A stretch of DNA of 64,000 nucleotides. It comes from Chroococcidiopsis sp. TS-821. Its GTDB lineage: Bacteria > Cyanobacteriota > Cyanobacteriia > Cyanobacteriales > Chroococcidiopsidaceae. Both the position numbers and the translations under genes were made by a program. The DNA lies in the NCBI RefSeq assembly GCF_002939305.1, contig NZ_MVDI01000006.1:206009-270008 (forward strand). The letters run 5' to 3'. This document shows positions 8,841-64,000 of the stretch, in pieces. The notes beneath the pieces were generated by a model. That model did no database searches and was not told the DNA's origin. It was given only the letters and a program-made list of their open reading frames with translations. The stretch's first letter is position 1, and every line of letters begins with the position of its first letter.

Positions 8841-9011
8841 GGTAGTAAAAAAACTTTTGTTGCTAATTATACCCAGTATTAATCATGATGCACTTCCTGC
8901 ACGTAAAGCTTTGTTGAAATTTTGATAATCATAGCAATACTGCGTGCATTCAGTTAAGCGATCAAATTAACGGCTAACGCCTTTTTATTAGGCAGAATTA
9001 CTAGCATAAAT

Positions 9012-10097: not shown

Positions 10098-10110
10098 CTA
10101 GCACCGTTTA

Positions 10111-10148
10111 GTTAATTGGTTGTGGAAGGGCTTTCACAGCCAGTTAAC
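10111..10148 (+). terminator. Hairpin after the DUF5895-like gene
   Basis: GTTAATTGGTTGTG pairs with CACAGCCAGTTAAC (12 of 14 positions plus two G-U pairs) around a 10-nt loop, 14 bp after the stop. There is no long T-run, so it may be a processing or Rho-assisted site. The rest of the gap to 10333 shows nothing recognisable. Confidence 0.45.
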
Positions 10149-10333
10149 TTCAGGAGAGTTTTGCTGCTGAGCGATCGCCACATTTATTTTGCTACTGACT
10201 CCTGCTTTAACCATCTTCAAAAGAGAGTAACGCGCTTTTGTGGAATGATTATTACAATGTCAACTAAGCCCCCAGTTTATCGTGGGAGAACGTGAATTGT
10301 GCCCATACAAATGAATGACTTACTTAATGTAAA

Positions 10334-11095
10334 TTAACGAACTGTACTTGAATTGCGTGAATAACGCGATTTAGAAGAAATTGGGGATGGAGATTTTGTA
10401 GATGTTGAATTGGCGTTTTTCAACAGTACGCCATCAACAGTTTGGTACTGCTGCCCGTTAAAGCACAGGTGAGTTTGGCGCACGAGCTGTTGCTGCGTTT
10501 TGTCAAGCTGAACCACTTCTAAGCAAGGCAACACTTGGTTTTGTTGAGGTAGATCGCTAGCTTTAAATAAGGCTTGTCCATTCGGTAAATTGGGATCGAG
10601 GTAAACTGAAAAAACCTGAGTGGCTGGCTGATTTTTCCTTAACCACACACCGCTGTAGAGGCATCCTAATGCGCCACACAAGTCTGGCGTGTTGAAGTTG
10701 AGTACAACTAGTTTACCGTCACTGCCATTGACTTTCCAGCCTTGCATTGACTGAACGAGCTGCCCAACCGCTTTCCCACTTAATGTACTGTTTTGAGCAA
10801 TGACTTGCTCTAACACGGGTTCAGGGACTAACGCGGCTGCTTGTTGCCAAGGAACACCACCGGCACCTACGCTGCATCCAGTGAGTCCTAACAGAGAAGA
10901 AATCAACAAAAAGAGTCCTAGCCCGATCCGAAACCACCAAGCAAACCGCTTCAACCAAATAGGAGGTAGGGGTAGCTCGCTGCTGGTTTCGTTGGTTTTG
11001 CCCTTGCTAGAAGCTAACACCAGTTCAGCAGAAACAGGCTGTGTTGCAGCATCAAATGGTTGTAAATTTAGCGATATCTGCGATTGCTGAGACAT
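10334..11095 (-). CDS. Single-pass membrane protein, last gene of the secreted-protein operon
   Basis: 253 residues from the ATG at 11095 (a longer in-frame start exists at 11182 but would run far into the upstream gene). A cytoplasmic N-terminus of about 50 residues is followed by one membrane helix (FRIGLGLFLLISSLLGLTGCSVG). This ends in LTGC, like a lipobox, but too far from the start for a normal lipoprotein. The periplasmic part has paired cysteines (DLCGALGCLYSG, VLPCLEV, HLCFNG), so disulfides are likely. Function unknown. It is 20 bp after the stop of the 11116 gene. Placement beside a VirB1-like lytic enzyme and a T4CP suggests part of a cell-envelope transfer apparatus. Confidence 0.6.
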   Translation of the reverse strand: MSQQSQISLNLQPFDAATQPVSAELVLASSKGKTNETSSELPLPPIWLKRFAWWFRIGLGLFLLISSLLGLTGCSVGAGGVPWQQAAALVPEPVLEQVIAQNSTLSGKAVGQLVQSMQGWKVNGSDGKLVVLNFNTPDLCGALGCLYSGVWLRKNQPATQVFSVYLDPNLPNGQALFKASDLPQQNQVLPCLEVVQLDKTQQQLVRQTHLCFNGQQYQTVDGVLLKNANSTSTKSPSPISSKSRYSRNSSTVR

Positions 11096-11115
11096 AATCG
11101 TTTGGAGAAAGGTAA

Positions 11116-11601
11116 TTAATCCAAGGTTGCAGGTACAGCAATACCTAGCCGTTTCAGCGCCCAGGTTTCTTCCGCAAACCACTGCTCGGCGGATTCTGAA
11201 GCGGAGATTGCTTGTTGTTGGAGTGCCGATCTACCCATTTCATTGAGTTCTTTGCGGTATCTTTGTAGAGTCAGTTGTTGTGCCACAGCTAAAGGCATCG
11301 AACCAGCTAGAGGAGTGCGATCGCCTGTGGGGTTGTAAAACAAGCGCTGGCAAGTTTTGCCTGTCGCTGCAACCACTAGGTCGGTTGCATCTTCATCCCC
11401 CTGCTCGTAAGCAGCCAAGAGATAGTAAGCTTGTGCTTGCAGTCTAGCAGTACCGATCTGTTCAACTCGCTCAAGCCCAAGGGGTGCGATACAAGTTTGA
11501 TAAGAAGGTAGACGGGCTTGAGCTGAATGACAAAAGGCTGTTGCGATCGCGGTGGCTAGCCCCATCGCAAATAGCAGAATAATTCTGAAAATCTGATGCA
11601 T
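11116..11601 (-). CDS. Small secreted protein
   Basis: 161 residues from the ATG at 11601. A TTG at 11619 would overlap the upstream gene. It has a classic signal peptide (IFRIILLFAMGLATAIATAFCHSAQA), then a helical mature domain with two cysteines (TCIAPLG, KTCQRL) and Gln/Ala/Glu-rich helices. It is not recognised. It starts 7 bp after the stop of the lytic-enzyme gene, so it is cotranscribed. Helical periplasmic proteins of this size occur in T4SS loci (VirB5- or TraH-like), but no specific similarity is seen. Confidence 0.55.
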   Translation of the reverse strand: MHQIFRIILLFAMGLATAIATAFCHSAQARLPSYQTCIAPLGLERVEQIGTARLQAQAYYLLAAYEQGDEDATDLVVAATGKTCQRLFYNPTGDRTPLAGSMPLAVAQQLTLQRYRKELNEMGRSALQQQAISASESAEQWFAEETWALKRLGIAVPATLD

Positions 11602-11608
11602 TGCTTCG

Positions 11609-13888
11609 TCAACTTGCAAAGTAGTTTCGTGGATTCACTGCTCGACCGCTAAACGGGTTGCCTGCAATCGCTCCTTCTCTCATTTCAATGTGGAGAGTGG
11701 ACGAACCAGTAAGAGCGATTAGGTCGCCCTGTTTGACTTTAGTACCGACTATCGGTTGGATAGAAGTCACGTGCGCGTATCGGGTTTGCCGTCCGTTGTC
11801 GTGTTCCAGCACAATTGTGTTGCCATAGCCTTCTGCGTGTCCTGCATAAATGACTTTCCCTTCTGCTGCGGCATAGATAGGCGTGGTTTCAGCCACCTCC
11901 ACGTCAATGCCTTTGCTGTGCTGGTTGCTTGCCGCAACCGCTGGTGCGCCAAACTCGCGCACTACGCGATAGGAGTCTCGAACTGGGAAAATCGCAATTG
12001 GCAAAGAACCAGCCCTACCAATTGGAGCACACGTCAGAGTGGTGTTGCTAGCCTGATAACGAGCTGCTACTTGCCTTCCGTAGTCTCTGAGGCTCAAACT
12101 TCCCAGCGTATCCGAGCTACTTCCATCAACAGCACTGTAGAGACCACCAAAATGCATCTGGGCAACTCGCTCAATCAAGCGACCGCCTGTGAAGAACTGG
12201 CCTGTCGTAGGGTCAATTTCTTGGCTGGCTCGTGCGATTGCGCTTGATAGAGAACTGTTGAATGCTCGGTTTTGATCTTCTGGTGGGAAATACTGCATCA
12301 ATTCGGCTGGGGCCGGTTCGTACCCCCTACTGACTTGCTTCAAAAAGTCCTGTCCGTTTGGTTTAGCTGCAATTAAACTAGTAGCGTACTCGTTATAGCT
12401 CATGAACTGGTAGCGACCGAGTCCGCGCCCGCAGTTTCCACCCCCGTCAGCGCAGGTGTAAACGCCGATCGCCATAAAGTCACCACTGGCAGCACTTTCA
12501 ATTGAGGCGATCGCCTCCGACAGTTCGCTCAACTTGAGCGTAGAACCATTGGCAGAAGTGAAGCAGTCTGGTGTCAGCAGGTTGCTAGTGCCAGTTTGCC
12601 CACCACCATAGGAACTGGACATGCTGCGGGTAGCGCCTGTAGGTTGGGACGAGGCAGAAGAATTTCTCTTCTCCTCCAGAAGGCCAATGAAAATAGGTGC
12701 ATTAACCTTATAGGTGAAAAAGGGTATCGGACCAATGAAGTAGGGGGTGCAGCCAAGATCGGGAATTCCTCGGTTACAGAAGCGAAAAAACAACGCCGTA
12801 TCTACCGTATCTGTTGCCTCATCTGGTTCTGTTACCACTACTTTGAAAGCAGAACCAAAAGGGTGGCGTCCGGTCGGTTCCTTTCCACCATTAACTGCGC
12901 CTAGGATGCCAAAACCACCTTCAACTTCCTGGTATTTGCCAGAGATCCACTGCTTACCTTCTAAATTAGCTCTAGCACCTCGCCCTGCGTTCTCCAGATC
13001 GTCGAGTTCGATGTAGGCGCAGTCCTTTTCGTCACAAGGTACAGAATACCCTTGTTGGTCTGAACCGGAAACGGTGTTATTTCGATGCATTTCCGACGAA
13101 CCGTAGATCGTGTCAATCCGCATTACCACCGAGCCAACTTCTGTAATTGGAGTCGGGAAGTCAGAAAAAGCAACTTGGTTGAGGCTTGGCACGTTGCTAA
13201 CAAAGCTATTTTGCCAGTTCGCAAAATTTTGCAGCTCAATTGCTCTTAAGCTGGGAATGGAATCAATACTAAACGTTGACAAGTCAATTTGATTGAGCTG
13301 TAACTGACCAAGCCTTGGATTGGTGACAATATAAGCCAAAGTTGCAGAGCTGCCAACCGTATTACCCAGTTGGGTTTGAAGTAGCTTTGCAACTGGAGGC
13401 ACATCTGCAACTGTTAGATTGCCCAGACCTGGCACAATCTTCACCAATTGTTGGAGAGTTTGCTCTCCTGCCAGCGTAAAAGCATCTAAAGAAACTTGAG
13501 AAAGGTTCAGTTCAGTGAGTTGACTAATAGCATCTAGAGAAAATACCTCTAAACTGAGAGCATCTGAAAGATCGCCCAGCTTCAAGTATTGATCGGGAGT
13601 CATGCCAGCACTCCAGTTCCGGCTGAGATCGTACCCTACCGTCTTAGTGTAGGCACTACCATCAAATGAGCCGTTAGAGGCGATCGGTGGCATACTGGCT
13701 AAGCTAATTTTGCTCCAATCTGGCAACAGCACGTTAGTAGTTCTCTCGCCCATCGGGACTTCCCAAACTCGTGTTGGGAACCGTCCCGACTCTGCTTTTG
13801 CAACTGCTGCCCAACCGGACCAAGCAACTGTAATCAAAATGAATACAACAAGCACCTTGCTCAAGTGCTTTACCACATCAGCAGTCAT
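11609..13888 (-). CDS. VirB1-like lytic enzyme: transglycosylase-like domain plus degenerate M23 peptidase
   Basis: 759 residues from the ATG at 13888 (a TTG lies at 13912). N-terminal signal or anchor helix (VLVVFILITVAWSGWAAVAKA), then a Leu-rich beta-repeat-like region (about 60-250) with recurring L..L.L..I..Fsi patterns. In the middle is a lysozyme-like segment: IESAASGDFMAIGVYTC, then GRGLGRYQFMSYNEY, as in transglycosylases, with the Glu of IES as probable acid. The C-terminal 130 residues are LytM/M23: HSKGID gives the zinc His and Asp, and RYAHV the first catalytic His. The usual HxH near the end is TLH, so one catalytic His is missing. Such enzymes open peptidoglycan for conjugation. 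It heads an operon with two envelope proteins. Confidence 0.75.
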   Translation of the reverse strand: MTADVVKHLSKVLVVFILITVAWSGWAAVAKAESGRFPTRVWEVPMGERTTNVLLPDWSKISLASMPPIASNGSFDGSAYTKTVGYDLSRNWSAGMTPDQYLKLGDLSDALSLEVFSLDAISQLTELNLSQVSLDAFTLAGEQTLQQLVKIVPGLGNLTVADVPPVAKLLQTQLGNTVGSSATLAYIVTNPRLGQLQLNQIDLSTFSIDSIPSLRAIELQNFANWQNSFVSNVPSLNQVAFSDFPTPITEVGSVVMRIDTIYGSSEMHRNNTVSGSDQQGYSVPCDEKDCAYIELDDLENAGRGARANLEGKQWISGKYQEVEGGFGILGAVNGGKEPTGRHPFGSAFKVVVTEPDEATDTVDTALFFRFCNRGIPDLGCTPYFIGPIPFFTYKVNAPIFIGLLEEKRNSSASSQPTGATRSMSSSYGGGQTGTSNLLTPDCFTSANGSTLKLSELSEAIASIESAASGDFMAIGVYTCADGGGNCGRGLGRYQFMSYNEYATSLIAAKPNGQDFLKQVSRGYEPAPAELMQYFPPEDQNRAFNSSLSSAIARASQEIDPTTGQFFTGGRLIERVAQMHFGGLYSAVDGSSSDTLGSLSLRDYGRQVAARYQASNTTLTCAPIGRAGSLPIAIFPVRDSYRVVREFGAPAVAASNQHSKGIDVEVAETTPIYAAAEGKVIYAGHAEGYGNTIVLEHDNGRQTRYAHVTSIQPIVGTKVKQGDLIALTGSSTLHIEMREGAIAGNPFSGRAVNPRNYFAS

Positions 13889-13999: not shown

Positions 14000-14302
14000 C
14001 TACAGTTCAAAATCCTCGTACTTGTAGCCCTTTTCGGCTGAAGGATTGTTAAATTGGGGATTAGGATTAGCAGCAGTCTCGGTGTAGGGCGAATCGGCGT
14101 GGTTCACTTCAAACACGTTCTCCTGGTAGCCGTTGCTGAAAAGATCTTCTTGCCAGCTGCTATCTCCAGCTCCAAACACGTTGGTGCCACCATAGCCTTC
14201 AGTCTCATACCCATTCGATCCATAACCATTAGAGTCGTAACCGCTAGAACTGTAGCCATTCGTGGTGTAGTTTTCGTCTTCGGGTAATCCGTAAGTATTC
14301 AT
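14000..14302 (-). CDS. NGY-repeat low-complexity protein
   Basis: A 100-residue acidic protein, rich in Asn, Gly, Tyr and Ser, with repeated SNGY/TNGY/SSGY/TEGY units in residues 10-45. There is no signal peptide or domain. Tyr/Gly-rich disordered segments of this kind can phase-separate or self-assemble. It lies 87 bp upstream of the TTG of the lytic-enzyme gene on the same strand, so may be cotranscribed. No function can be assigned. Confidence 0.5.
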   Translation of the reverse strand: MNTYGLPEDENYTTNGYSSSGYDSNGYGSNGYETEGYGGTNVFGAGDSSWQEDLFSNGYQENVFEVNHADSPYTETAANPNPQFNNPSAEKGYKYEDFEL

Positions 14303-15270: not shown

Positions 15271-17067
15271 ATGATATGCGCTCTAACTTCCACACTGCGG
15301 GATTACTCAACTCCTAATTACCTTCTGATTCAAGATGAAAAAACCCTAGCTCGGCAGCTCAAGGCAATTCAAAGCACTGCTCTATTCGGGATTGACTGTG
15401 AAACGACAGGACTCGATCCCAAGCGCGATCGCCTCCGGCTGGTGCAGATTGCCGTTCCCCACGCGAGAGTCCTGCTCATCGACTTATTTGCGATCGCACC
15501 AAAGCACCTCAAACCGCTTCGGCAACTCTTAAACAGTCCTGCCCTGAAAATAGGACACAACCTGAAGTTTGAGTGGCAATTCCTTACTCAAGCTGGATTA
15601 GGGTTAGCTCATCCTTTCTTCGACACGCAACTAGCATACCGAATCTGGAGTGCGGGGATCAAAACTAAACTGTCTCTCAAATCAGTTGCTAGCAAACTGC
15701 TGGGAGTGAAATTAAATAAATCATTGCAGCACAGTAATTTTGCTCAAGCTGAATTGACCTCCCAGCAACTCCGATACGCTGCGATCGATGCAGCCATTCT
15801 GCTGGATCTATATCCCATCCTGCACGGCAGACTCAAACAAAGCCAACTGCTCGAAGTCGCTCGATTAGAGTTTAGTTGTATCCCTGTCACCGCGCAGATG
15901 GAACTCAACGGGATGTTACTCGACCTCAGCCGTTGGCAGGGGTACGGTGCATCGTTAGAAAAGCAAAAAGCAGCCGCGCTTGCAGTGGTGAAGCAGCTTT
16001 CGATTCCTGGCAAGCAACAACTGTCGTTGTTACCAGAAATAACCGATACTATCAACCCCAACTCACCCAAACAACTCCTTGCGGCACTACAAGCGATTGG
16101 TGCGCCGATCAAATCTACAAGCGAAAAAGAACTCGTCCCGCTGGCGGGGCAATTCCCAGTCATTCAAGCATTGCTGGATTACCGCAAGCTGCAAAAGGTA
16201 CTAACTGTTTTCGACACTAGCCTACCCAAACACATCCACCAGACGACGGGTCGGATTCACGCTAACTGGTTTCAATATGGAGCTAAGTCTGGCAGATATA
16301 GCTGCCGCAACCCAGCACTGCAAACCGTTCCCCGCAATAAAGCGGCACGGCAATGCTTTGTGGCTTCCCCTGGCTGTCGAATTGTCAAAGCGGACTACAG
16401 CCAAATCGAGCTACGTATTGTTGCCAAGTTGAGTGGAGATGCGCGGCTGCTGCGGGCGTATCGCTTAGGAGAAGACATTCATCGCCTGACTGCTTCACTG
16501 ATTACAGAAAGACCCATTGAAGAAATCGCCCCAGAAGATCGAACGCTAGCAAAAGCGATTAATTTCGGACTGATTTACGGTATGAGTGCTGTCAAACTCC
16601 AAGTCTATGCTGAAACCAAGTACGGCATTCGCATGTCACTGGAGGAAGCTCGTCGGTTCAGGAAACGATTCTTTGAAGCATATCCGGGCATCAAACGTTG
16701 GCATGATATGCTAGCAGGACTGGTCTACGGTCATCAGAAAGTAAGTGAGATTCGCACGCTCTTTGGCAGACGCAGGCGATGGAGGAAAAAACCTCGGCTC
16801 ACCGAGTTCTACAATCACCCAGTGCAAGGATTGTGTGCCGATATCCTCAAACTGGCTTTGATCGACTTAGAAACGGTTTTAATAAAGTTCGGCGCAAAGC
16901 TGATTGCTGTGGTGCATGATGAAATCCTGCTGGAGTGCCCAGAGGTTGTTGCTCTAGCGATCGCTCAACAACTCAAGCGATGCATGGAACGAGCTGCTCA
17001 GCCTTTCCTCGACCCGATCCCAGCTGTAGTAGAAGTTAAAGTGGCTGCTAATTGGGGTGGTGAATAA
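15271..17067 (+). CDS. PolA-type DNA polymerase with 3'-5' exonuclease
   Basis: A 598-residue family A DNA polymerase lacking the 5'-3' exonuclease domain of chromosomal PolA. Exonuclease: GIDCETTGLD (residues 40-49, metal ligands Asp42 and Glu44), GHNLKFEW near 98, YAAIDAAILLD near 168. Polymerase: motif A DYSQIELR near 374, motif B RTLAKAINFGLIYG near 423, motif C VHDEI near 547. All catalytic residues are present, so it should be active. Such short enzymes occur on phages and cyanobacterial plasmids and probably serve replicon replication or repair. The start ATG lacks an obvious ribosome site. It converges on the AAA ATPase gene with 3 bp between stops. Confidence 0.9.
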   Translation: MICALTSTLRDYSTPNYLLIQDEKTLARQLKAIQSTALFGIDCETTGLDPKRDRLRLVQIAVPHARVLLIDLFAIAPKHLKPLRQLLNSPALKIGHNLKFEWQFLTQAGLGLAHPFFDTQLAYRIWSAGIKTKLSLKSVASKLLGVKLNKSLQHSNFAQAELTSQQLRYAAIDAAILLDLYPILHGRLKQSQLLEVARLEFSCIPVTAQMELNGMLLDLSRWQGYGASLEKQKAAALAVVKQLSIPGKQQLSLLPEITDTINPNSPKQLLAALQAIGAPIKSTSEKELVPLAGQFPVIQALLDYRKLQKVLTVFDTSLPKHIHQTTGRIHANWFQYGAKSGRYSCRNPALQTVPRNKAARQCFVASPGCRIVKADYSQIELRIVAKLSGDARLLRAYRLGEDIHRLTASLITERPIEEIAPEDRTLAKAINFGLIYGMSAVKLQVYAETKYGIRMSLEEARRFRKRFFEAYPGIKRWHDMLAGLVYGHQKVSEIRTLFGRRRRWRKKPRLTEFYNHPVQGLCADILKLALIDLETVLIKFGAKLIAVVHDEILLECPEVVALAIAQQLKRCMERAAQPFLDPIPAVVEVKVAANWGGE

Positions 17068-47264: not shown

Positions 47265-48065
47265 TCAATGCCATTGCACCGGAGCGAGCCAGTAATTGTG
47301 ATGAATCATCTCAAGGCGCGGAAACAACAAAAAAGCACCCAGCAGATAATCAATAACGTTTTCATCCAGCTTAATCCCAGTAAAAGCTTTCATCCGCTCT
47401 AGCGCTATCAAAAACGCAGATTTTTGCTTTGAACTAATGGCAAGATACTCTTGTTTTTCCTTCGCAGAAAAGGGAACGTTGGCTCTATCCCAATTCCAAA
47501 GTAGACAACATTGCCGTAAAGATAAGCTCGTACTCGCAAGCAGTAGCGCCGCGCGATAGTAAAGCCCAGTTCGCCGTAGCATATACGGATGAACAGGAAA
47601 AGGAAGCTGTGCAATTTCCCCAGCTTGTTGAATTTGATGATGCAGCGAACGGGCACTCAGGCGTTTTCGCCGCTCCGAGACAAATAACCACTCAGTTGTG
47701 CGTCGCTCCTGAAGCTGTTGCAGGATATTGATTTCAGCCGCGCACAACGGTTGAAGGTTAACAACAACTTGAGTTTGGTAGCGCTGTAGTGTAGCGCGAT
47801 TGCGAGCCACTTTGAGAGTGTTTTCGGCAAAGTTGAGGTCGCGCCAGAGGAGCCAGCACAATTCGACGGGTTGTAAGGCTTGGCAGAACAACAACAGCAC
47901 CAGAGCTTGATTTCTAATCGGGTTGCGCGTTGCCTCGGTGGCAGCAATCAGCGCATCGACTTCTTCAAGGTAGAGAAACTCGCGTTCGCGACGTTCGATA
48001 AAAGGAGTTTTCTGGGGTGGAGAAGGCACGCGGATAACTTTGCCGAAAAGGTTTACCGTAGTCAT
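47265..48065 (-). CDS. Degenerate integrase-like protein
   Basis: 266 residues of the tyrosine-recombinase fold without the usual active site. ALQPVELCWLLWRDL is the place of the first catalytic Arg (here Gln), and HPYMLRRTGLYY keeps His and Arg. No clear GH-x-Y end is present after LCLLWNWDRANV. It likely binds DNA but does not cut. It lies just downstream of the telomere-resolvase-like gene on the same strand (221 bp gap), so could be an accessory or regulatory factor. Confidence 0.6.
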   Translation of the reverse strand: MTTVNLFGKVIRVPSPPQKTPFIERREREFLYLEEVDALIAATEATRNPIRNQALVLLLFCQALQPVELCWLLWRDLNFAENTLKVARNRATLQRYQTQVVVNLQPLCAAEINILQQLQERRTTEWLFVSERRKRLSARSLHHQIQQAGEIAQLPFPVHPYMLRRTGLYYRAALLLASTSLSLRQCCLLWNWDRANVPFSAKEKQEYLAISSKQKSAFLIALERMKAFTGIKLDENVIDYLLGAFLLFPRLEMIHHNYWLAPVQWH

Positions 48066-48286: not shown

Positions 48287-50599
48287 TTATGCATTAAACT
48301 GCTGCACGAATGCTTTGAGCGCTACTGCATCCTTACCCCGATTGTGCCCGCGTTGATTGTCTACGCCAATCTGGGCATGGTGTTCGTCAATCAAATTCTG
48401 GTGTTTGCGGACAAACTCCTTAGCCGCCTTACGATTAATGCCAAAAGTCTCTTCGAGTAAACCGACAGTAATCGCCCAAGTATCCTGAGGATGTTGTTGG
48501 TTCCATTCACAAATAGCGGCAAAGATACGTTGTGCTCGGTCTAGAGCGCCACCGCTTCTAGCTGGTTTAGGTGTAGCCCCTCCTGAAATCTGAGTCGGGC
48601 CAGGATTGATCGTATGCGGCACTTGCTGTTGTTGGGTCTGCTCCTGCACTTGGTTTTGGTCATGTACTGTAGGAGCGCTAGGAGCAGAGCCGGCACTCCT
48701 AGCTTGTGTTGGAATTGTTGCTGGCGTAGAGTTACTCTCGCCCAAGAGAGCCGCTTTTGCCGCCTCAAATCGTGCCGCAGCTTGCTTAAGCTGCCGATTC
48801 TCGGCTTTGAGGTGTTCGATCTCCTGCTGTAACTGGCTCGACTGCTTTACCATAGCGATCGCTTGTTCGCGTTGTTCTTGAAGCTTAGCCAGTTCAGCTT
48901 CCAGCGCTTCAATTCTCCCCGTGAGCCAACTCAAGGTTCGAGCTTGGTCTACCACAACAGTTGCGATCGCGCTGTCTGCCACTACAGAAGTCCGCTCTTG
49001 GTGCGTAGAGTCATGTTGAGTCGTTTGTTCAGTAGCTATTGAAGCGCGAGAGTTGACTTCAACCATCTCTGGCTCTGGTATAGCTGCCTTAGTCGCTGGC
49101 GAGGCTTGAGTAGAGCTACCTAGTCGTGCTTCAACCCATTGCAGCAGTGCAGAGGTCTTTTCCTGCTGGTTGTTATGCTTAGGGCAGAGCGCATCCAACA
49201 CCTGATGCCAGCGGTCATGCTCGTCCTTAAAAATTCGCAGTAAACTATGTTGGCGTGGCGCTAGAGTCATATCATTAGACGTTGAATCATTATTGGATGA
49301 GGCGATCGCCGGTTCGCTCTCATGGGGGGTAGTTTTAGAGGATGCTTTAGAGGTAAGTTTGGTCTGCTTTGGTTCTACCTGTACCCACTCGGCTGGTAGC
49401 ACTGGCTCTACAGACTCTAGCAGTGCTATTGATTCCTCTTGAGATAGTGGCTGCGTTGGCTCTAGTTGTACTTCATCCTGATTCAGCGAAGGTAGCGCAT
49501 TAGCATCCAGTAGCACTCCCTGACCTTCTAGGGGTTGACCCTGCTCGTTGACTAATCGGTAGTGGAAGTAATGACTAGTTGCGATGCTGTTGGGTGCAGT
49601 CTGCTGCTGGTCAAGTACGTGTCCGAGATAGTGCTGGAGAAACCTGTGCTCGTGTTTGGTAGGAGGGCAGAACAAATAAATCGCGATTGCCCCATACACG
49701 CCTCGAAGCCTGTGAATTGAAACAGTCTTCTTGCCAGCCAATACAGGTATAATGCCAGTGTCTTGGAAGAGCTGTTTGACCTCGCGGTCAATACGCGTAT
49801 TGAGTACTCGGATTCTTGGGTCTTTGCTATCAACTCCTGCTAATTGTTCGATGGCAGGCAGCGTGCGGAACCGCTCGATGCCCTCTAGGACTTGGGTAGC
49901 AGGTACGAGTGTGAGAATGTCAAATCCAGGTGCTGCCTCATCTTCACCCATCTGCTTTTTCTGCTGTCCCTGAAAGTGTAATAGGTATGGATGGTGAGTC
50001 AGTTGAAAGTGTCCCTTGCTAATCACTTCAGTATGCCGCCTACCTGTCAGTGCCGCAATAGCAATCGCTAGATGTCGCTCGTCGTTTGATGCCAGCAATT
50101 CAGTGGCTGTATCGAGGTAACGTTGCAGTGGCACTGGTTGCAAGTTATCTTGTCGGCTATTATTCGCTGCTGTCCCTTCTCCACGAATTTGTTGGTACGT
50201 GGCTTGGTCGTACTTGAGGTAGTCAAGCGCGAAGTGTTCCTGTGTTTGTCCGAGTTCTCCCGTATTGCGCTTAGTCCAAGTCACTATATGACTATTTTCA
50301 TTAGTTAGGAGCAAAGTGCCTGTAGAAATTGCATCCTCGATCAGTCGGCGGTATAAAGGTATCTGATTGCCAGCGATTGTCGCTTGGGGATAGCCCTCTT
50401 CTAAAAGTTGAATTTCAGCTGTGCACAAAGCTTCAATCTCATCTGGTGAGTTAAGCAGTTTTAATCGGTCAACAAAATGTAGTGCTAGCTGTTCTAACTC
50501 GTGTTTCAACAGCTTAGTGCGATTGCCTTTGTGAATGCGCTGACGGTAGCGGGCAATAATTTCTTCTCTACTGAGGTCAAACCGAGTGGCATTGCTCAT
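48287..50599 (-). CDS. Telomere resolvase (protelomerase)-like protein
   Basis: 770 residues. The first half fits hairpin-telomere resolvases (TelA, ResT, TelN/TelK), which cut a replicated palindrome and rejoin each strand as a hairpin. Candidate catalytic residues: Arg187/188 (ALTGRRHTEV), Lys214/215 (FQGQQKKQM), Arg297/299 with His296 (SIHRLRGVYGA), His327 (YLGHVLD), Tyr344 or 347 (TSHYFHYRL). His-to-Tyr distance (17-20) is longer than in the ResT and TelA pattern as I recall it. The second half is linker, a coiled coil (about 555-610) and a terminal helical DNA-binding-like domain (ALDRAQRIFAAICEWNQQHP then ITVGLLEETFGINRKAAKEF). Alternative: a non-resolving relative common on cyanobacterial plasmids. 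The palindrome at 63875-64000 favours a real resolvase. Confidence 0.75.
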   Translation of the reverse strand: MSNATRFDLSREEIIARYRQRIHKGNRTKLLKHELEQLALHFVDRLKLLNSPDEIEALCTAEIQLLEEGYPQATIAGNQIPLYRRLIEDAISTGTLLLTNENSHIVTWTKRNTGELGQTQEHFALDYLKYDQATYQQIRGEGTAANNSRQDNLQPVPLQRYLDTATELLASNDERHLAIAIAALTGRRHTEVISKGHFQLTHHPYLLHFQGQQKKQMGEDEAAPGFDILTLVPATQVLEGIERFRTLPAIEQLAGVDSKDPRIRVLNTRIDREVKQLFQDTGIIPVLAGKKTVSIHRLRGVYGAIAIYLFCPPTKHEHRFLQHYLGHVLDQQQTAPNSIATSHYFHYRLVNEQGQPLEGQGVLLDANALPSLNQDEVQLEPTQPLSQEESIALLESVEPVLPAEWVQVEPKQTKLTSKASSKTTPHESEPAIASSNNDSTSNDMTLAPRQHSLLRIFKDEHDRWHQVLDALCPKHNNQQEKTSALLQWVEARLGSSTQASPATKAAIPEPEMVEVNSRASIATEQTTQHDSTHQERTSVVADSAIATVVVDQARTLSWLTGRIEALEAELAKLQEQREQAIAMVKQSSQLQQEIEHLKAENRQLKQAAARFEAAKAALLGESNSTPATIPTQARSAGSAPSAPTVHDQNQVQEQTQQQQVPHTINPGPTQISGGATPKPARSGGALDRAQRIFAAICEWNQQHPQDTWAITVGLLEETFGINRKAAKEFVRKHQNLIDEHHAQIGVDNQRGHNRGKDAVALKAFVQQFNA

Positions 50600-53726: not shown

Positions 53727-54194
53727 TTATGGTTTCTCTTGGCTTAATATTCCTTTAAAAGTCTTATAGCTTGGAAGAAAAACATTAATAGTTCCTTCCA
53801 GTTGTTGCATAGTATCGAGCCGTACGATCATCAAGACAGCAAAGTTTGCTCCTACACTTGGATCTTCAACGATCTCCCACATTGTTCTGCAATCCGTACT
53901 GCTTGGTTCTAAGGTAAATGATGGATGAGAATGCCATTCTCCCAGGTAGTTGAAGCGAGTAAAGTCATATCCTGTCTTGCGAAAAAAGTTCTGTAAAGGA
54001 TTGAAAATTGCTACTGGCAGACGCAGGAAAGAGATGACTGTGCCACTTTGCCTTTGGATGGTGATGTCTTTTACACGGTAAACACCATCTGAAATATGTT
54101 CTCCCATTAAGATGCCACCGATCTCCTTACTTCCTGCTCTTTGCAGAGCCTTAATTAATTTTTGGACGATCTTCTCAGGAAGGACTATCTGCAT
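53727..54194 (-). CDS. cap3: CBASS JAB/MPN isopeptidase, Cap3-like
   Basis: 155 residues from the ATG at 54194 (an earlier in-frame start at 54230 is less likely). JAMM motif: Glu24 in KEIGGILMG, then GEWHSHPSFTLEPSSTD with His88, His90 and Asp101 as zinc ligands and Ser98 nearby. In type II CBASS, Cap3 cuts the bond that Cap2 makes between the CD-NTase C-terminus and its targets. It overlaps the Cap2 gene by 20 nt and is the last of four genes. All catalytic residues are present. Confidence 0.85.
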   Translation of the reverse strand: MQIVLPEKIVQKLIKALQRAGSKEIGGILMGEHISDGVYRVKDITIQRQSGTVISFLRLPVAIFNPLQNFFRKTGYDFTRFNYLGEWHSHPSFTLEPSSTDCRTMWEIVEDPSVGANFAVLMIVRLDTMQQLEGTINVFLPSYKTFKGILSQEKP

Positions 54195-55956
54195 CCTGCA
54201 TTTTCTCCAGCAATTCGCTAAGAAAATCAATTCCTTCAGAATCTACATCAGGGGATACAGGATTGCCGCTTTCGATATGGACTACCTTGCTCGTGTCGAT
54301 GGGAATGGTATGGAACGGAGCCTTAAAAATCCATGCCTGCTGAAAGCCGATGACGTAAATTGAATATGGGAACAAGGATGGTTCTCTCGCTAAGAGAGTA
54401 TCAATTGCCAAGCGGGTGAGATGACCTGCCATAATGCTAACTTCGGCATCCGAAGCTTCCAAAACTTCCCCTCCCGTACTTTCTAGAATGTATTGATCGG
54501 TTGCAGTTCCTGGAAGTGCCACATCTTGCATAGATAAATACTCATGAAACGCTGCTTTCGTTGCCTGTAGATCGGGATCTTGTCCAGGGCGGCTCCGGGC
54601 AATCATGCCGCCGATACCACCCGCGAATACTTCTGCCCAAACCAGCGGTTTAGCGTAGCTTTTGGCGATGAAAGCAAGGAGATTAAAAATTATTGGGTTA
54701 GCCGTAGCATCAATCAGGAGGTCACATCGGTTTAACTGGCGCAAAACGCAATCTAGAGCAGCACTCGATTCTTGCCCTCCCAGACTCAGCGTTGCAACAT
54801 CAACTTGGGCAGTGGCGGTAATGTAGGACATAACCTCAGCAACAGCATGAACCTTATGTTCTCCAACATTCCGCCAGTCAAGATCGTTGCGGCAGATGTT
54901 TTCTGGTAGAAAAATATCCTCATCGACTAAATAAAATTTGCCGACACCTGTACGAGCTATCGAGGCAGCAACTTTACTACCAACAGAGCCTAAACCTACA
55001 ATTCCCACAGACTTACTGGACAGTTCGTGTAATTCTGACGGTAGGCGGGGGTTTATTGTGTCAAGGTTGGATTGCACAAAGGTAGCTTTCCAAACTTCAC
55101 TCTTACTAGCGGCAATTTTGAGGAAGAAGTGGAGATTATCTTCGGCATCCGTGAGGAGAACGCCAAATAGCCCTCCTGCATCTTTTTCTACCCAAATGCT
55201 ATGTTCCTTCAACGCAGCAGTTCCGTAGCCTGCTTGCTCAAGAACTGCTTCCAGGTCTTGCAATGTGTTGGTTGTAGCCAGAGCTTTGGGAGGAAGCCCT
55301 GTTTTATAGAAAGCACCTCGATTCTTAGCAGCGTTGTTTAATCTTTTGGGAATCAGTGTGTCGTTCCATGCTGGCAAATCATCAGGTTGGACACTGTAGA
55401 GCAGCACCAGGTAAGATTGGCTTTGCCATCGCCCTGAGAATTCGATAGAACCAGTGCTAAAGGACGATAATCCAGCTAGATAGGCGTTGAGGGCTTTGTT
55501 TACATAAACGCGGATGAAACTTTCGCGCAGTATTTGACCCGTGGAAAGCTCATGTTGAGATGGGACGATGTGTTGCTCACCTGTTCCACGAGGGTTTTCT
55601 GTGCTTAAAAGGGTGTAGGTGCTTTCTAAAACCTGCGCTCCCGTTACCTCAGTATGCCATGTGTCCGGTCGCCATTCCAAACATAAAGCACCACTGACAT
55701 ACTGGTGACTTGACCATCTTTCCTCAGAATTTTTGGGATACACCGTGGGAGGGACTGCTGGAAAGAGAGCCGGGTATACCATTTTTACGGGGTAATCGTA
55801 GCCGTGAGCTTGGATAATGGCTTCAACAACCAGCCTGCCGTTGTCAAGAATCCAGTTAGTCCCTGTCAGCCAGTCAACACTATCTTCAAGGAGGCAAATT
55901 GCTTCCCGCTCCTTAACTAGCCGCTGCAAATCACTGATAAACCATATATCGCTCAC
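54175..55956 (-). CDS. cap2: CBASS E2-E1 fusion, Cap2-like
   Basis: 593 residues. N-terminal E2-like domain (1-150) with the active Cys92 in VSGALCLEWRPDTW. A middle domain (about 160-320). C-terminal E1/ThiF adenylation domain (about 325-540): SVGIVGLGSVGSKVA (ATP), LVDEDIFLPENICRNDLDW, LIDATANPI. Cap2 attaches the CD-NTase C-terminus to a target, priming the cyclase. No cysteine occurs after about residue 415, so the usual catalytic Cys of the E1 domain is not visible; either it sits earlier or transfer goes directly to E2. It overlaps the CD-NTase gene by 4 nt. Confidence 0.88.
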   Translation of the reverse strand: MSDIWFISDLQRLVKEREAICLLEDSVDWLTGTNWILDNGRLVVEAIIQAHGYDYPVKMVYPALFPAVPPTVYPKNSEERWSSHQYVSGALCLEWRPDTWHTEVTGAQVLESTYTLLSTENPRGTGEQHIVPSQHELSTGQILRESFIRVYVNKALNAYLAGLSSFSTGSIEFSGRWQSQSYLVLLYSVQPDDLPAWNDTLIPKRLNNAAKNRGAFYKTGLPPKALATTNTLQDLEAVLEQAGYGTAALKEHSIWVEKDAGGLFGVLLTDAEDNLHFFLKIAASKSEVWKATFVQSNLDTINPRLPSELHELSSKSVGIVGLGSVGSKVAASIARTGVGKFYLVDEDIFLPENICRNDLDWRNVGEHKVHAVAEVMSYITATAQVDVATLSLGGQESSAALDCVLRQLNRCDLLIDATANPIIFNLLAFIAKSYAKPLVWAEVFAGGIGGMIARSRPGQDPDLQATKAAFHEYLSMQDVALPGTATDQYILESTGGEVLEASDAEVSIMAGHLTRLAIDTLLAREPSLFPYSIYVIGFQQAWIFKAPFHTIPIDTSKVVHIESGNPVSPDVDSEGIDFLSELLEKMQDADSPS

Positions 55957-56927
55957 GCAAATCCCCCCGGTTTTTTCGGAATTAGGGGTCGATTAGGGAA
56001 AGTCAGATTCTGTGCTGTGAAAGCTGCACTAAGAAGTTCATCTGCATTATCTTCAGCTAAGTGACAGGGAAATCTATCACCAAAATGCTTTTGCCACTCT
56101 TTACAAGCGTTTTTCAGGCTGGTTTTGTCGTCTAAAGCTTTCTCGGCAGAGCGGATCAAACTAATGAGCTGGCTCTTGAAATAGTTCTTATCGGTTTGGC
56201 TGTAGTTTTGCAACAAATCCTCATAGGTGGGTGTTGTGGGGCGGTAGCAGGTAAAGCTTAGAGCCAATGAGTTCTTGATACCGATTAGGGTATTGTAAAG
56301 GGCAATATCATCTCTTGCGTTAAAGTGAATGTTTCTCGTTGCCAGGATAGAGAGGATAAGTCCACTTGGCAGAGAGCCAGCCTTATAGTCACTCCAGGCT
56401 TTGAGATAGCGGACTACCCGCCGCAATTGTCTCTTGTCATCGGTTTTGTCTTGAAACCATTTGATGAATTCTCTAGGATCACTCTCGATCCAGCCCTTGC
56501 TTTTATGCGCCAGTCGTGGGTACTGCCCTTTGATGATGTAGTAGATGGGAAGATCAAGGTGGTATTGCCCTGCATAGACAACCCTAATGCAAGTTTGCTT
56601 ATCAATCGGCTCCTGTTTGGTATGCCCATCGACGGCTTCACAGATCCAGCGATGAAACGTATCAACGCTATAAATGGGTTCTTTATCAACGAGAAAGTAA
56701 ATGCCATCATCAATATCAAATTCTCCGTCACTAGGAAGGATGATGATGTTCATCATGAATGAACCCTGACCATGAAATTTAGGGAAAAAACCATTAGCTT
56801 TTTCCTTAAAATAACTTCTGATTCTGTCACGCACAGCATCGCGGGATGTCCGCAAGAATGCTTTATGGTTCGGTTTCAATTCGATGATGGAGTTGAATTC
56901 AAGGAATAGTTTATGACAATCCGCCAT
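55953..56927 (-). CDS. CBASS cyclic-oligonucleotide synthase (CD-NTase)
   Basis: 324 residues. Nucleotidyltransferase motif GQGSFMMN (Ser56), then FDIDDG with Asp71 and Asp73, and Asp125 in YHLDLPIYY as third metal ligand. It makes a cyclic di- or trinucleotide after phage sensing, which switches on the patatin effector. The C-terminus (PLIPKKPGGFA) is short and flexible and ends in small residues, as required for Cap2 joining. The clade cannot be given without a search; the patatin partner suggests a DncV-like cGAMP-type enzyme. The start overlaps nothing; the patatin stop is 5 bp upstream. Confidence 0.9.
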   Translation of the reverse strand: MADCHKLFLEFNSIIELKPNHKAFLRTSRDAVRDRIRSYFKEKANGFFPKFHGQGSFMMNIIILPSDGEFDIDDGIYFLVDKEPIYSVDTFHRWICEAVDGHTKQEPIDKQTCIRVVYAGQYHLDLPIYYIIKGQYPRLAHKSKGWIESDPREFIKWFQDKTDDKRQLRRVVRYLKAWSDYKAGSLPSGLILSILATRNIHFNARDDIALYNTLIGIKNSLALSFTCYRPTTPTYEDLLQNYSQTDKNYFKSQLISLIRSAEKALDDKTSLKNACKEWQKHFGDRFPCHLAEDNADELLSAAFTAQNLTFPNRPLIPKKPGGFA

Positions 56928-56931
56928 CGGC

Positions 56932-57954
56932 TTACCTTATGATGTAATGCTTTTGAGACGCAAAGAACTTGGCAACTTCAGGACGTTTTTCAAATATCAA
57001 CCCTTGGTCTTTCCCTTTGCTCAACATGATGTTTAGGGCTTCTGTTGAAGTGTTATCCAAATTAATAATTTGCGACTGTTTGGAAGAAAGATCAGCCCCT
57101 GGAATTCTGACGTACTCAAACGGGGAATCACAGTGTTGGGCGAATGTTTCAACAAAGTAACTGGTGATATATGCCTGTCCCTCAAAAAAAGTTGCAATCA
57201 AATCTTTGTTCCAGTCCAGCACCGAGCGATCGTGCTTGGCAACAAACCGTCTTCCAGGATTTGGTTCTAGCGAACCAATTGACATGACCATTAGCTGCTG
57301 AAACTTCTTATCTTTGCCCACAAAGTACCTGAAAGCTTCTGCTACCCCAATGAAGGTTGGATTGTTAGCGTATACACCACCATCAATAAATTGTCTGTAG
57401 TCGTAGTTTTCACTAGTGATAATCGGCAGATAGGTGGGTGCTGCGCTTGTTGCTAGAGCGACATCGACGTACTTGGTTTTGTTATCCCTGCTGAGGTCGC
57501 CTTCGGGGTGGTCGTACTTGAAGATGAATGGTCTGCCATCTGTTAAAGAAAAGGCAGGAATGCATAACAAACAGTGAGAATCTGCCAAAGTGCAATCGCC
57601 AAACATTTCTTGCAGAGCTTTTTCCAGTTCCTTGTTATCGTATTTACTGCCCAAGAAGATCTGCTTGAACAAGCTGTAGATACTGCCTCGTTTTCTAAAT
57701 ATTTGCTTGCCTCGCCCATAGTAGAGGTTGCTGATCTTACTGACAGGAATTTTTAGGGATAGACCAAGGGCGATCAAGCCTCCTGTTGAGGTTCCACAGA
57801 TGAGATCAAAGTAGTCAGCGATGCAACAATTAAATTTCTGTTCAAACTGTTCCAGGATTCTGGCTGAGTAAAGCCCTTTAATGCCACCTCCGTCGATTGA
57901 CAGAACTTTGAAGCATTTTATCTGTGCGTTAGAATCTTGAGGGGATTGGAGCAT
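56932..57954 (-). CDS. capV: CBASS patatin-like phospholipase effector, CapV-like
   Basis: 340 residues of the patatin fold: oxyanion loop DGGGIKGL (21-28), nucleophile Ser56 in GTSTGG, and catalytic Asp191 in IDGGVYANNP. When bound to the cyclic nucleotide, such effectors degrade membrane phospholipids and kill the infected cell. It is first in the four-gene operon on the minus strand. The promoter is in the 343-bp gap that follows (57955-58297). Confidence 0.88.
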   Translation of the reverse strand: MLQSPQDSNAQIKCFKVLSIDGGGIKGLYSARILEQFEQKFNCCIADYFDLICGTSTGGLIALGLSLKIPVSKISNLYYGRGKQIFRKRGSIYSLFKQIFLGSKYDNKELEKALQEMFGDCTLADSHCLLCIPAFSLTDGRPFIFKYDHPEGDLSRDNKTKYVDVALATSAAPTYLPIITSENYDYRQFIDGGVYANNPTFIGVAEAFRYFVGKDKKFQQLMVMSIGSLEPNPGRRFVAKHDRSVLDWNKDLIATFFEGQAYITSYFVETFAQHCDSPFEYVRIPGADLSSKQSQIINLDNTSTEALNIMLSKGKDQGLIFEKRPEVAKFFASQKHYIIR

Positions 57955-58297: not shown

Positions 58298-58567
58298 TTA
58301 TTTTACCTTGCGCTCTTCAAGGTATTTGGCGATTGACTCTGCCACAATGTCGCTCATCTCTCTTTCTTCGTCCGCCGCAGCTGTTTTGAGTTGCTTATGT
58401 AGCTGCTTTGGCAAATAAACTGTTGTGCGAATGTAGTCAGAATCGGTACTCTTGCTTTTGCGGACTGGCGTTTTTTTTGTTGGCTCTGCTAATTCCTCTT
58501 GCTCTTTACTGCCACTTCGAGCCGCGCCGAATAGATCGTCAAACCGACTGCCACTTTTCTTGGTCAT
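58298..58567 (-). CDS. Ribbon-helix-helix partition protein, ParG-like
   Basis: 89 residues from the ATG at 58567, overlapping the ParA-like stop by 4 nt. The N-terminal half is disordered and charged; the C-terminal half is a RHH fold (YIRTTVYLPKQLHKQLKTAA, VAESIAKYLEE). It resembles ParG, which binds short repeats in the promoter and centromere and acts with the ParF ATPase. Repeats flank the operon at 58245-58282 and 59210-59237. Confidence 0.75.
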   Translation of the reverse strand: MTKKSGSRFDDLFGAARSGSKEQEELAEPTKKTPVRKSKSTDSDYIRTTVYLPKQLHKQLKTAAADEEREMSDIVAESIAKYLEERKVK

Positions 58568-59157
58568 GGCAGGATCTCCTTCCCAACTTCGTAGTAGCAT
58601 CTCCACGCGATACCCGCATAGGAATCGCCTTTAACTTGATTTACTGGAACTCCCTTCAAAGCTGCGTGTTGGAATACAGCCAATCGCCTGATTCCAGTTC
58701 TGAAAACTGGTAGACCAGCATTAATTAAGGATTGCTTTGCCTCTTCCCCAACACGGCTGGGGTGTGGAGGAACCAGGGTGATAAGAATCTTGTAGTTAGT
58801 GTCTAATCCTTTTAAATTGTCTACCATTTGCAGCATTGCTCCCATTGCTAAAGCATCGGGGCTGGTAGGCAATACAAGCAGATCGCACCCCTCAGCAATA
58901 GTTTTCAATTCTTCAGAAGCGGGTCGAGCCGGAGTATCAATAATAATGTGTTCGTACTGCCTTGCAAAGCGTACTCCCTGCTTCTCATCCACAACTTTGA
59001 AGGGAAGATTGCCACGACTAGACCAATCTAAGGCGCTCTGGTTAAGGTCGCCGTCAACTAGCAGAGTAGCCGCCTTAGCTTGGAAGTAGGTAGCAAGATG
59101 CAGGGCTGTTGTAGTCTTACCCACACCTCCTTTAAACGAAGCAACGGTCACTATCAT
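58564..59157 (-). CDS. ParF-like partition ATPase
   Basis: 197 residues from the ATG at 59157 (GTG at 59166 also possible). Deviant Walker A FKGGVGKTT, LLVDGDLNQSALDW (Walker A' Asp), HIIIDTPARP (Walker B). Small ParA without the N-terminal HTH, so type Ib, which pairs with RHH proteins. The partner gene follows with a 4-nt overlap. It segregates plasmid copies over the nucleoid. Confidence 0.85.
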   Translation of the reverse strand: MIVTVASFKGGVGKTTTALHLATYFQAKAATLLVDGDLNQSALDWSSRGNLPFKVVDEKQGVRFARQYEHIIIDTPARPASEELKTIAEGCDLLVLPTSPDALAMGAMLQMVDNLKGLDTNYKILITLVPPHPSRVGEEAKQSLINAGLPVFRTGIRRLAVFQHAALKGVPVNQVKGDSYAGIAWRCYYEVGKEILP

Positions 59158-59205
59158 TGTTGCCACCAGCTAATTGCTAAGACACGATTGTACAACAAAC
59201 ATAGA

Positions 59206-61758: not shown

Positions 61759-62631
61759 ATGCTTCGAGTTCATGCATGCTTACCCCAGAAAATTGTTGTG
61801 TTCACTATACCAGAAATCTTAGAGACACTCCTTGAGCCATTTGCTCAGTTGTTTTCGCTTCGAGTTTGGCAGCATGCTCAAGTGCTGCTATTTGGAGCGA
61901 TCTTGAGTCCAGCTCAACGCACTGTTGCTGCTGCACTGCGAGTAATGGGACACTCAGAAGAAAAGCATTTCATCAACTATCATCGGGTGCTCGCTCGTGC
62001 CGTTTGGTCTAGCCGTCAAGCCAGCCAAATCTTGCTTCTACAACTGATAGCCGTCTTTGCCACTAGCGGTGTGATTGTGTTCGGGCTAGATGACACCCTT
62101 GAACGACGACGAGGCAAACAGATTGCAGCCAAAGGCATCTATCGAGACCTAGTGCGTTCTAGTCATGGACACTTTGTCAAAGCCAGTGGCTTGCGTTGGT
62201 TAAGCTTGATGGTATTAGTTGAGATTCCCTGGGTGCAGCGCGTCTGGGCACTGCCATTTTTCACGGTACTGGCAGCATCGCAACGATATAACCAGCAGCA
62301 GGGGCATCGCCATAAATGTTTAACTGACTGGGCACGGCAGATGCTCAAGCAAGTGCGACGGTGGCTGCCACATCGTCAGCTCGTGGTCGTGGCAGACAGC
62401 AGTTTTGCTGCACTGGAGTTGTTATTTGCGTTGTCTGGCATGAAATCTCCAGTGCACATCGTCACTCGCCTGCGCTTGGATGCGGCACTCTATGAACCTG
62501 CCCCACCTCGACAACCCCGACAGATGGGACGACCTCGACTCAAAGGTAAGCGACTGCCCACTCTGGCGACGATATTGAACGAGCCGCCAACACGATGGCA
62601 ACGAGTGGCATTGGCAGGCTGGAGCAGATAA
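61759..62631 (+). pseudogene. IS701/DDE_5-like transposase, 3'-truncated
   Basis: FGLDDTLERRRGKQIAAKGI (first Asp), then VVVADSSFAALELLFAL (second Asp) are the DDE core of IS701-like elements. The chain ends at VALAGWSR in mid-domain, without the final Glu, so it is not functional. GGGTAAG/CTTACCC (61751-61785) around the start may be the left terminal repeat. The right end is not recognised. Confidence 0.7.
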
Positions 62632-63874
62632 TAACTCCTTCGATATGGCTCAAAATTGAATGCAGCTTTCCCAACGTCAAACAACTCGGTATTGCAAAAG
62701 TGTGTAATCCCGAATTAGTTTAACTTGTTGGGGAACGCCGTAGCAGCAATTCTACTACATCATGACAGAATGACAGAGCCACCAACTCAAGCCAGTCATA
62801 ATCCTAGTCAGTCAACATAGCGTGCATGGCGGCTCGATTGACTGCTCTGCCTCAAGTCCAGAGACTGTGTGATGATGTGCAAATTGCCCAGAGCAATCAA
62901 TTGCAAGCTGCGGGTGTGGTGGGCGACCACCTACGCTAGTAAACCAAAAGCCCGTGCCAGTGAATTGCCATCCTCTAAAGCCGATAGGCTGACAGTGCAA
63001 CCAGCATGTTGTTATGTAGAGTGAGAGTGAGGTTTAGTTTTTAGATTTAGTTTAGTTTTTTAGGGGCGAAGACAGTTGAGCCGTAGCAGGCAGGAGTAGC
63101 GGACAGGTAAGTACTCAGGGCTGCGATTGCAGAGATAGCACCACAAATACTGGTTTAGGCGTACGGTTAGTCAGCAAAAATTTAGCTGTATAATAATGGC
63201 GCTCAGTGGAGCCAGACAATTTTATACGCTTAAGTAAGATAGGACTAAGGCTTGAGTTCAAAGTGAGCGATGTGAGCGATCGCCCTTCAATATCAGCAAG
63301 GCTACGAGCTAAACCCGAAATTCATCCAGGATCAGGCGAGGCATAGTAGCGGAGCTTGAGCTAGCAAGCGAGGACAGGCAAGGGAAATGACGCATTATAC
63401 TGAGTACAGCAGGGCAGGCAATAGCAGAACACGGTTAGAGGCAAGGCTAGCACTTGATCGCACTGTTTGACTCAGCAATGATGAAGGCACAAGAAGCAAG
63501 TGATCGCGCTGATAGCTAGAAACAAAGTCAAACAATCGCAGTATGCTATATCAGCAACCAATAGAGGCTACGATAGGGATGCGATCGCACTGCTTTAGGC
63601 TAAAGAGCCAACCAACAATCAACAGAGCAGAGGCACTCCTACGAGCGTACAATTACTGAAAGGCGAATAAATTAAAAGTGTATATGTACAGCAATTCCTA
63701 CAATCTTACAGACATATTTGTACATCTATACAGTTGTACGAGCAAGCTGTATAGGTGCATCTATGCAATGTAAATGTAAAAGCCTTGTTAGATAAGCACT
63801 CTAGACTAGCATACTCATGCCCTAAAATATCTGTATAAATCTAGGTAAGGGCGGATAAGTTGACCAAGTTGACC
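62632..63874. other. Gene-free subtelomeric region
   Basis: About 1.24 kb without a credible gene. It contains scattered short ORF pieces (perhaps transposase debris to about 63000) and several GCGATCGC sites. From 63660 on it has many TGTAC, TATACAG and CATCTAT motifs. CTATACAG (63726-63733) and CTGTATAG (63747-63754) form an inverted repeat, and AGTTGACC occurs twice in tandem near 63859-63874. Confidence 0.6.
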
Positions 63875-64000
63875 CTGTACAGTTAAAAATTTGACTGTAT
63901 ATACAGGTAAACACGAGCGTACATTGTTATATTGGAATTCCAATATAACAATGTACGCTCGTGTTTACCTGTATATACAGTCAAATTTTTAACTGTACAG
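63875..64000. other. Perfect 126-bp inverted repeat, candidate hairpin telomere
   Basis: Left arm 63875-63937, right arm 63938-64000, complementary at all 63 positions. The axis is in TTGGAA/TTCCAA (63937/63938). There is no spacer. Nested palindromes are CTGTACAG (63875-63882), CTGTATATACAG (63895-63906) and their mirror copies. It runs to the window edge, so its full length is unknown. This is the structure of a resolvase target or of a hairpin end read through in sequencing. The telomere-resolvase-like gene at 48287 supports it. Confidence 0.8.

Follow-up and report, generated by a model that had tools for sequence, protein, structure and literature searches.

The stretch analysed here, hereafter the window, comprises 64,000 nucleotides of the cyanobacterium Chroococcidiopsis sp. 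TS-821 and ends in a perfect 126-bp palindrome, which is very probably an assembler's read-through of a hairpin telomere, one of an identical pair that is likely closed covalently. The plasmid of ~269.9 kb to which it belongs is predicted to be linear, with hairpins made by a telomere resolvase encoded 13 kb away. A preliminary description of the window had named a hairpin telomere of a linear cyanobacterial plasmid at this place, and the proposal is now supported by a second end, by the family match of the resolvase and by a linear near-copy; covalent closure of the ends is what we infer. Sequence comparison confirmed the palindrome at 63875-64000 as perfect and spacer-free (spacer 0), with its centre at 63937|63938; for 63-bp arms, the chance expectation within 64 kb is ~1e-33. 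As the window corresponds to G000:C6:206009-270008 and contig C6 (NZ_MVDI01000006.1; host assembly G000, 5.23 Mb in 72 contigs) is 270,008 bp long, base 64000 is the final base of the contig, and the suggested look beyond the window meets no further sequence in C6. The similar palindrome anticipated at the other end is present, C6:1-126 being identical to C6:269883-270008. The contig carries a perfect inverted terminal repeat of 1,385 bp, in which C6:1-1385 is the exact inverse of window positions 62616-64000, and a search allowing up to 3 mismatches placed the palindrome core TGTTATATTGGAATTCCAATATAACA at only two sites in the host genome, both of them ends of C6. At either end, 63 bp of complementary strand are read past the tip, and C6 thus has the two ends, each a spacer-free palindrome on read-through, by which a hairpin-ended plasmid is recognized. 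If these ends are hairpins, bases 63938-64000 belong to the opposite strand and the replicon measures 270,008 - 126 = 269,882 bp.

Comparison of the first 500 bases of nine other host contigs showed that the starts of C1 and C3, and those of C5 and C7, share exactly 127 bp and then diverge, which is the mark of a de Bruijn assembly with k = 127. An assembler entering a fold-back would presumably stop once the next k-mer was the reverse complement of the current one, leaving a palindrome of k-1 = 126 bp. Because contig ends share k bases and the palindrome measures k-1, we reject 126 bp as a biological feature and take the centre as the real one. From the earlier view of the palindrome as a replicated or read-through telomere, the fold-back centre therefore stands, whereas its 126 bp are not a telomere length but were set by the assembly. 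A contig from another genome of the family (G441:C13; 165,138 bp) likewise ends 63 bp beyond its own tip.

The telomere-resolvase-like gene described 13 kb away is indeed there: it occupies minus-strand positions 48287-50599, and 13,338 bp separate it from the tip. Its 770-aa product matches PF16684, the ResT/TelK catalytic family, with 198.4 bits over the full profile (1-181; curated cut-off 27), and the predicted fold matches solved resolvases beyond other tyrosine recombinases, with ~20% identity in the fold alignments to known resolvases. Profile and structural prediction together place the protein in the telomere resolvase (protelomerase) family of ResT, TelK and TelA; a generic integrase is ruled out by Pfam and fold. 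When the active-site set of TelA (R255, K286, Y363, R366, H394, Y405) was compared, R188, K214, R299 and H327 aligned and were invariant in 38 sequences. At the position of TelA Y363 the 770-aa protein has H296, and both Y344 and Y347 are invariant in the same alignment. With 23 bits against a cut-off of 800, the protein falls outside the TelA equivalog of Agrobacterium (NF052462).

A near-identical replicon has been deposited separately. Plasmid pGLO7428.02 of Gloeocapsa sp. PCC 7428 (NC_020051.1; 201,822 bp, deposited as linear) encodes a resolvase 100% identical to the 770-aa protein and matches C6 over 166,889 bp at 99.999%, 20,843 bp at 100% and 14,139 bp at 98.9%. It starts and stops 18 bp beyond the same tip, where C6 runs on for 63 bp, and has an exact inverted repeat of 1,340 bp; contig C5 of the corresponding genome, G430, has the same length and tip positions. 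In contrast to C6, pGLO7428.02 lacks a 68-kb block (C6:35028-103074, outside the window). Open-licence PMC searches found no literature on its ends. G430 counts as another species of the genus to which G000 belongs; over a single 6-kb sample of the chromosome, the three largest matching pieces were 84, 90 and 87% identical. As the plasmids are near-identical against a chromosomal identity of 84-90%, the plasmid has probably moved between species recently, a conclusion that rests on this one chromosomal sample and to which contamination is a possible alternative. In PLSDB, pGLO7428.02 is typed as conjugative. In G430, a partial PF16684 match with two TAG stops lies on the largest contig (G430:C1:2378738-2379091) and is likely a decayed resolvase gene.

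The centre of the palindrome coincides with a sequence whose distribution follows that of the enzyme. The 24-bp tip core GTTATATTGGAATTCCAATATAAC (63926-63949), the predicted resolvase target, occurred in 5 of 388 genomes of the order, exact each time in a search that allowed up to 2 mismatches, and all five have a resolvase. Within the family, 6 of 19 genomes have a resolvase and all 5 core-bearing genomes are among those 6 (by simple count, 6 chances in 11,628); the remaining one, G005, is a draft in 150 contigs. Beside the core, the four distinct tips of this clade vary over 17-18 bp, after which CCTGTATATACAG is invariant. In the window, this element lies at 63968-63980 in the right arm and mirrors CTGTATATACAGG at 63895-63907 in the left arm, likewise invariant in the four tips and a predicted accessory binding site. 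The perfect arms reach 1,738 bp in G. dulcis, whose sequence is 74.8% identical to the window over the 69% that aligns, and 2,739 bp in G487. Arms that have diverged between species yet are perfect within a molecule suit a hairpin, because both of its arms are one strand, but gene conversion in a circle could also explain them. Other cores track close groups of the resolvase tree: TTGGAATTCCAA is found in the window's resolvase clade and in G637 next to it, tips resembling TTCCTTGTTCTnnnnAGAACAAGGAA and centred on CTAG, CATG or TATA in a clade of short resolvases, and GTTAATTTAAATTAAC in G078:C53, pC052_H and pNsp_d, half of it recurring in the plasmids of Nostoc N6. As several forks of that tree are weak and long branches meet, only close, well-supported groups were used.

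We also surveyed resolvase contigs across cyanobacteria. Matches to PF16684 came from 71 of the order's 388 genomes (69 above the cut-off) and from 15 of 386 genomes of a phylum sample (14 above it). Ends were read for 56 resolvase contigs, namely the other 16 on the phylum list and, from the order list, the 40 new ones with the best scores, with the contigs of G430, G441, G453 and G487 treated apart. Terminal palindromes, counted from 24 bp upwards and with no more than 6% mismatches, were present in 14 of the 56 contigs and at 20 of 112 ends. As controls we took 37 non-resolvase contig starts (9 from G000, 8 from G078 and 20 from other survey genomes), one of which was all N; none of the remaining 36 had such a palindrome (Fisher 0.004, with contigs of one genome not independent). 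Counted among the 14 are G470:C198 and G278:C104, whose short, odd-centred palindromes could be ordinary stem-loops; leaving these out gives 18 of 112 ends (Fisher 0.007). Palindromes at both ends mark G078:C53 (22,857 bp; palindromes of 106 bp, exact inverted repeat of 689 bp), G078:C59 (18,151 bp; 38 bp, repeat of 864 bp), G459:C70 (16,002 bp; 54 bp, repeat of 681 bp) and G470:C31 (85,325 bp; 68 bp, repeat of at least 1,500 bp), all four likely complete small replicons. Among plasmid records, 24 matched the resolvase and 20 were examined (leaving out H11, H12, H14 and H17); 13 of the 20 are labelled linear, a count that comes without a base rate from other cyanobacterial plasmids. As contigs with a related gene end in palindromes in a quarter of cases, hairpin telomeres are likely commoner in cyanobacteria than reported in the papers found.

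Several observations weigh against hairpin ends on C6. As its two ends are identical, the contig alone cannot separate two hairpins from one palindrome in a circle. The same core lies within a palindrome internal to a record labelled circular in G. dulcis (NZ_CP119970.1, near 211060) and inside a 673-kb contig in G487 (C2:470905). In the survey, 42 of the 56 resolvase contigs have no terminal palindrome, and 7 of the 20 plasmid records examined are labelled circular. PF16684 is also found on chromosome-sized contigs and in a Synechococcus elongatus control genome, so the gene alone proves nothing. Finally, the cumulative GC skew of C6 shows no turn at the tips, with its minimum at ~33.8 kb and its maximum at ~166.6 kb; according to the accessible text of PMC5987646, skew inversion is not usable for finding cyanobacterial origins.

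The main alternative is a circular plasmid of ~269.9 kb with a single, very long perfect palindrome (arms of ~1.3 kb), broken open by the assembler. It would yield the same assembly graph, and the circular deposit of G. dulcis with its internal palindrome (arms of 1,738 bp) and the 2,739-bp arms within the 673-kb contig of G487 speak for it. However, pGLO7428.02 was deposited as linear, and the G. dulcis record labelled circular is a Trycycler assembly of Flye and Raven results for which the available part of PMC10516996 names no separate topology check. An active resolvase would also be expected to open a long palindrome. Long perfect palindromes are, moreover, cut by SbcCD, as in E. coli. 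Two relatives with unlike ends bear on the question directly. In G662:C58, 5 of 51 palindrome positions set the two ends apart, and each read-through has 0 mismatches to its own arm and 5 to the opposite end; in G452:C23, the counts are 1 in 59 for the own arm and 4 for the opposite end. By sequence, each end folds on itself, unlike a single palindrome in a circle, a pattern that a head-to-head circular dimer would also give. Overall, we consider a circular plasmid improbable. Both terminal near-palindromes of G452:C23 have an odd centre; read outward alike, the central base is A at one end but T at the other, as would follow from an asymmetric junction resolved into two hairpins.

An artefact of assembly or library, that is, chimeric inverted reads or an inverted mobile element and no biological fold-back, is very unlikely. 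It could account for a palindrome of length k-1 and for the DDE transposase gene (61759-62631) that touches the inner border of the repeat. Against it, a plasmid that was deposited separately, from another species, has the same centre, as do three further genomes in which the arms have diverged, whereas no control contig start has such a palindrome, and this conservation of the centre across genera largely excludes an artefact. A linear plasmid with open, protein-capped ends as in Streptomyces or phi29 would share the long inverted terminal repeats, as is generally known, but is hardly credible and was ruled out by the 63-bp read-through into the complementary strand at both ends, unexpected for open ends, with the encoded telomere resolvase as a further point against it; genes for terminal proteins were not searched for.

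For the hairpin telomeres proposed here, the known family suggests how they would be made. The plasmid would be copied from an internal origin and round both hairpins into a circular head-to-head dimer, joined at two full palindromes. At each of these, the core would be bound by a dimer of the resolvase, which would cut both strands near 63937|63938 via a phosphotyrosine, after which each cut strand would be folded back and resealed to release two linear monomers. The flanking elements would act as accessory sites, and the arms would be kept perfect as each hairpin is one continuous strand.

On the sequence evidence, the system would be a new case of a known hairpin-telomere kind: it comes with an enzyme, a likely target and a near-copy from a separate deposit, and some relatives display a fold-back at their own ends. 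Phages N15 (TelN) and phiKO2 (TelK), Borrelia (ResT) and Agrobacterium (TelA) have hairpin telomeres from palindromic targets and enzymes of the same fold, as the consulted parts of PMC3558466 and PMC12624138 describe; from these enzymes the 770-aa protein differs in its low identity (see above), in its target sequence and in a long C-terminal part. The bacteria with hairpin telomeres that PMC3558466 names include cyanobacteria, on which the part available gives no detail. The linear Rhizobiaceae plasmids have hairpins and terminal repeats of ~1.1 kb and encode a resolvase and topoisomerase I according to the available text of PMC13293297, and topA is likewise present in pGLO7428.02; they differ from C6 in having other hosts and ~80 kb.

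Within cyanobacteria, the closest precedent comes from Nostoc sp. N6, whose linear plasmids pNPM8, pNPM9 and pNPM10 have inverted terminal repeats of 2.73, 0.16 and 1.06 kb (PMC5987646, 2018, in its accessible text). There, hairpins were inferred from palindromic Nextera XT reads, and a mate-pair library showed a coverage drop and missing spanning pairs; the main text contains neither 'telomer' nor 'resolvase'. Like C6, pNPM8 and pNPM10 encode relatives of the 770-aa resolvase, the matches covering only 12-22% of the protein, but the Nostoc N6 plasmids are smaller (22-67 kb) and have a different tip core, AAATTAACRGAC. Crocosphaera subtropica (Cyanothece) ATCC 51142 has a linear chromosome of 430 kb, and a 429,701-bp contig under this name encodes a further relative (54% over 47% of the query). 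Replicons of Cyanothece 7822 and Nostoc ATCC 53789 are called linear in the excerpts available of PMC4320622 and PMC7118181. The setting is therefore less rare than the preliminary description held, given the Nostoc N6 plasmids and the 13 linear labels among resolvase plasmid records. No publication linking a resolvase of cyanobacteria to its own telomere turned up in open-licence PMC searches, and one article consulted for the host strain (PMC12967839) has nothing on contigs or plasmids.

Nostoc sp. C052 pC052_H (NZ_CP040280.1; 44,291 bp, linear record) has two fold-backs with one core, at 14179 and 38103, and mirrored genes, and its first half matches itself imperfectly (91%, many gaps); it looks like the unrolled dumbbell of a plasmid about half that length, its deposited length and gene copy numbers probably being doubled. 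NC_014534.1, a large linear record, has neither repeat nor palindrome at its ends; its bases 1-50 resemble a cloning polylinker, and the true end may be missing. NC_014535.1 (13,777 bp, linear record) has short tandem repeats of the CTTGTATAGGG type at both ends, which each start within a few bases of CTCGCGAG, possibly a further tip core.

In G027, a one-contig genome of 4.68 Mb that starts at dnaA, a perfect palindrome with 3,079-nt arms and a 1-nt centre at C1:2113190 lies 45% of the way round from the dnaA start (arms at 6911-9989 and 9991-13069 of G027:C1:2103201-2123200). Each arm contains a gene for an 876-aa resolvase, and the flanks, named by eye, have a malic-enzyme-like gene on one side and TonB/ExbB-like genes on the other. 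The plasmid record AP018283.1, labelled linear, has the same 15-bp centre in its terminal palindrome. We tentatively suggest, as a possibility rather than an expectation, that hairpin telomeres are widespread and transferable in cyanobacteria, with clade-specific tip cores, linear plasmids that cross species and, in the lineage of G027 at least, a main chromosome that was taken over and became linear. Whether some cyanobacterial main chromosomes are linear is a question that this raises.

Linking linear plasmids of cyanobacteria to an enzyme that can be identified and to a candidate target of precise sequence makes telomere resolution in the phylum testable in vitro, and the several candidate enzyme-target pairs go beyond the few in use for making hairpin-closed DNA. 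For draft genomes, a contig that stops in a self-palindrome beside a PF16684 gene offers a sequence rule for spotting linear replicons now read as fragments or circles.

A tyrosine recombinase gene adjoins that of the resolvase (47265-48065, minus strand; PF00589, 7.2e-16) and also follows it in pGLO7428.02 and G. dulcis. Near the tip, a ParA-type ATPase (58564-59166, minus strand; PF01656, 3.5e-12) is a probable plasmid partition protein, and its pGLO7428.02 counterpart is annotated as ParA family. Relaxase and coupling-protein genes lie within the window, and the replicon looks like a conjugative plasmid rather than a prophage, phage genes not having been searched for over the whole plasmid; one scan of viral contigs gave no relatives of the resolvase. 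A DNA polymerase gene (15271-17067) and, in pGLO7428.02 (112341-136795), additionally topA, dnaN, dnaX and holA are parts of a replication machinery of the plasmid's own. Between resolvase and tip, 53727-57954 hold a four-gene anti-phage operon of the cyclic-oligonucleotide-based anti-phage signalling system (CBASS) type, with a phospholipase effector, a DncV-like cyclase, E1-E2 and JAB.
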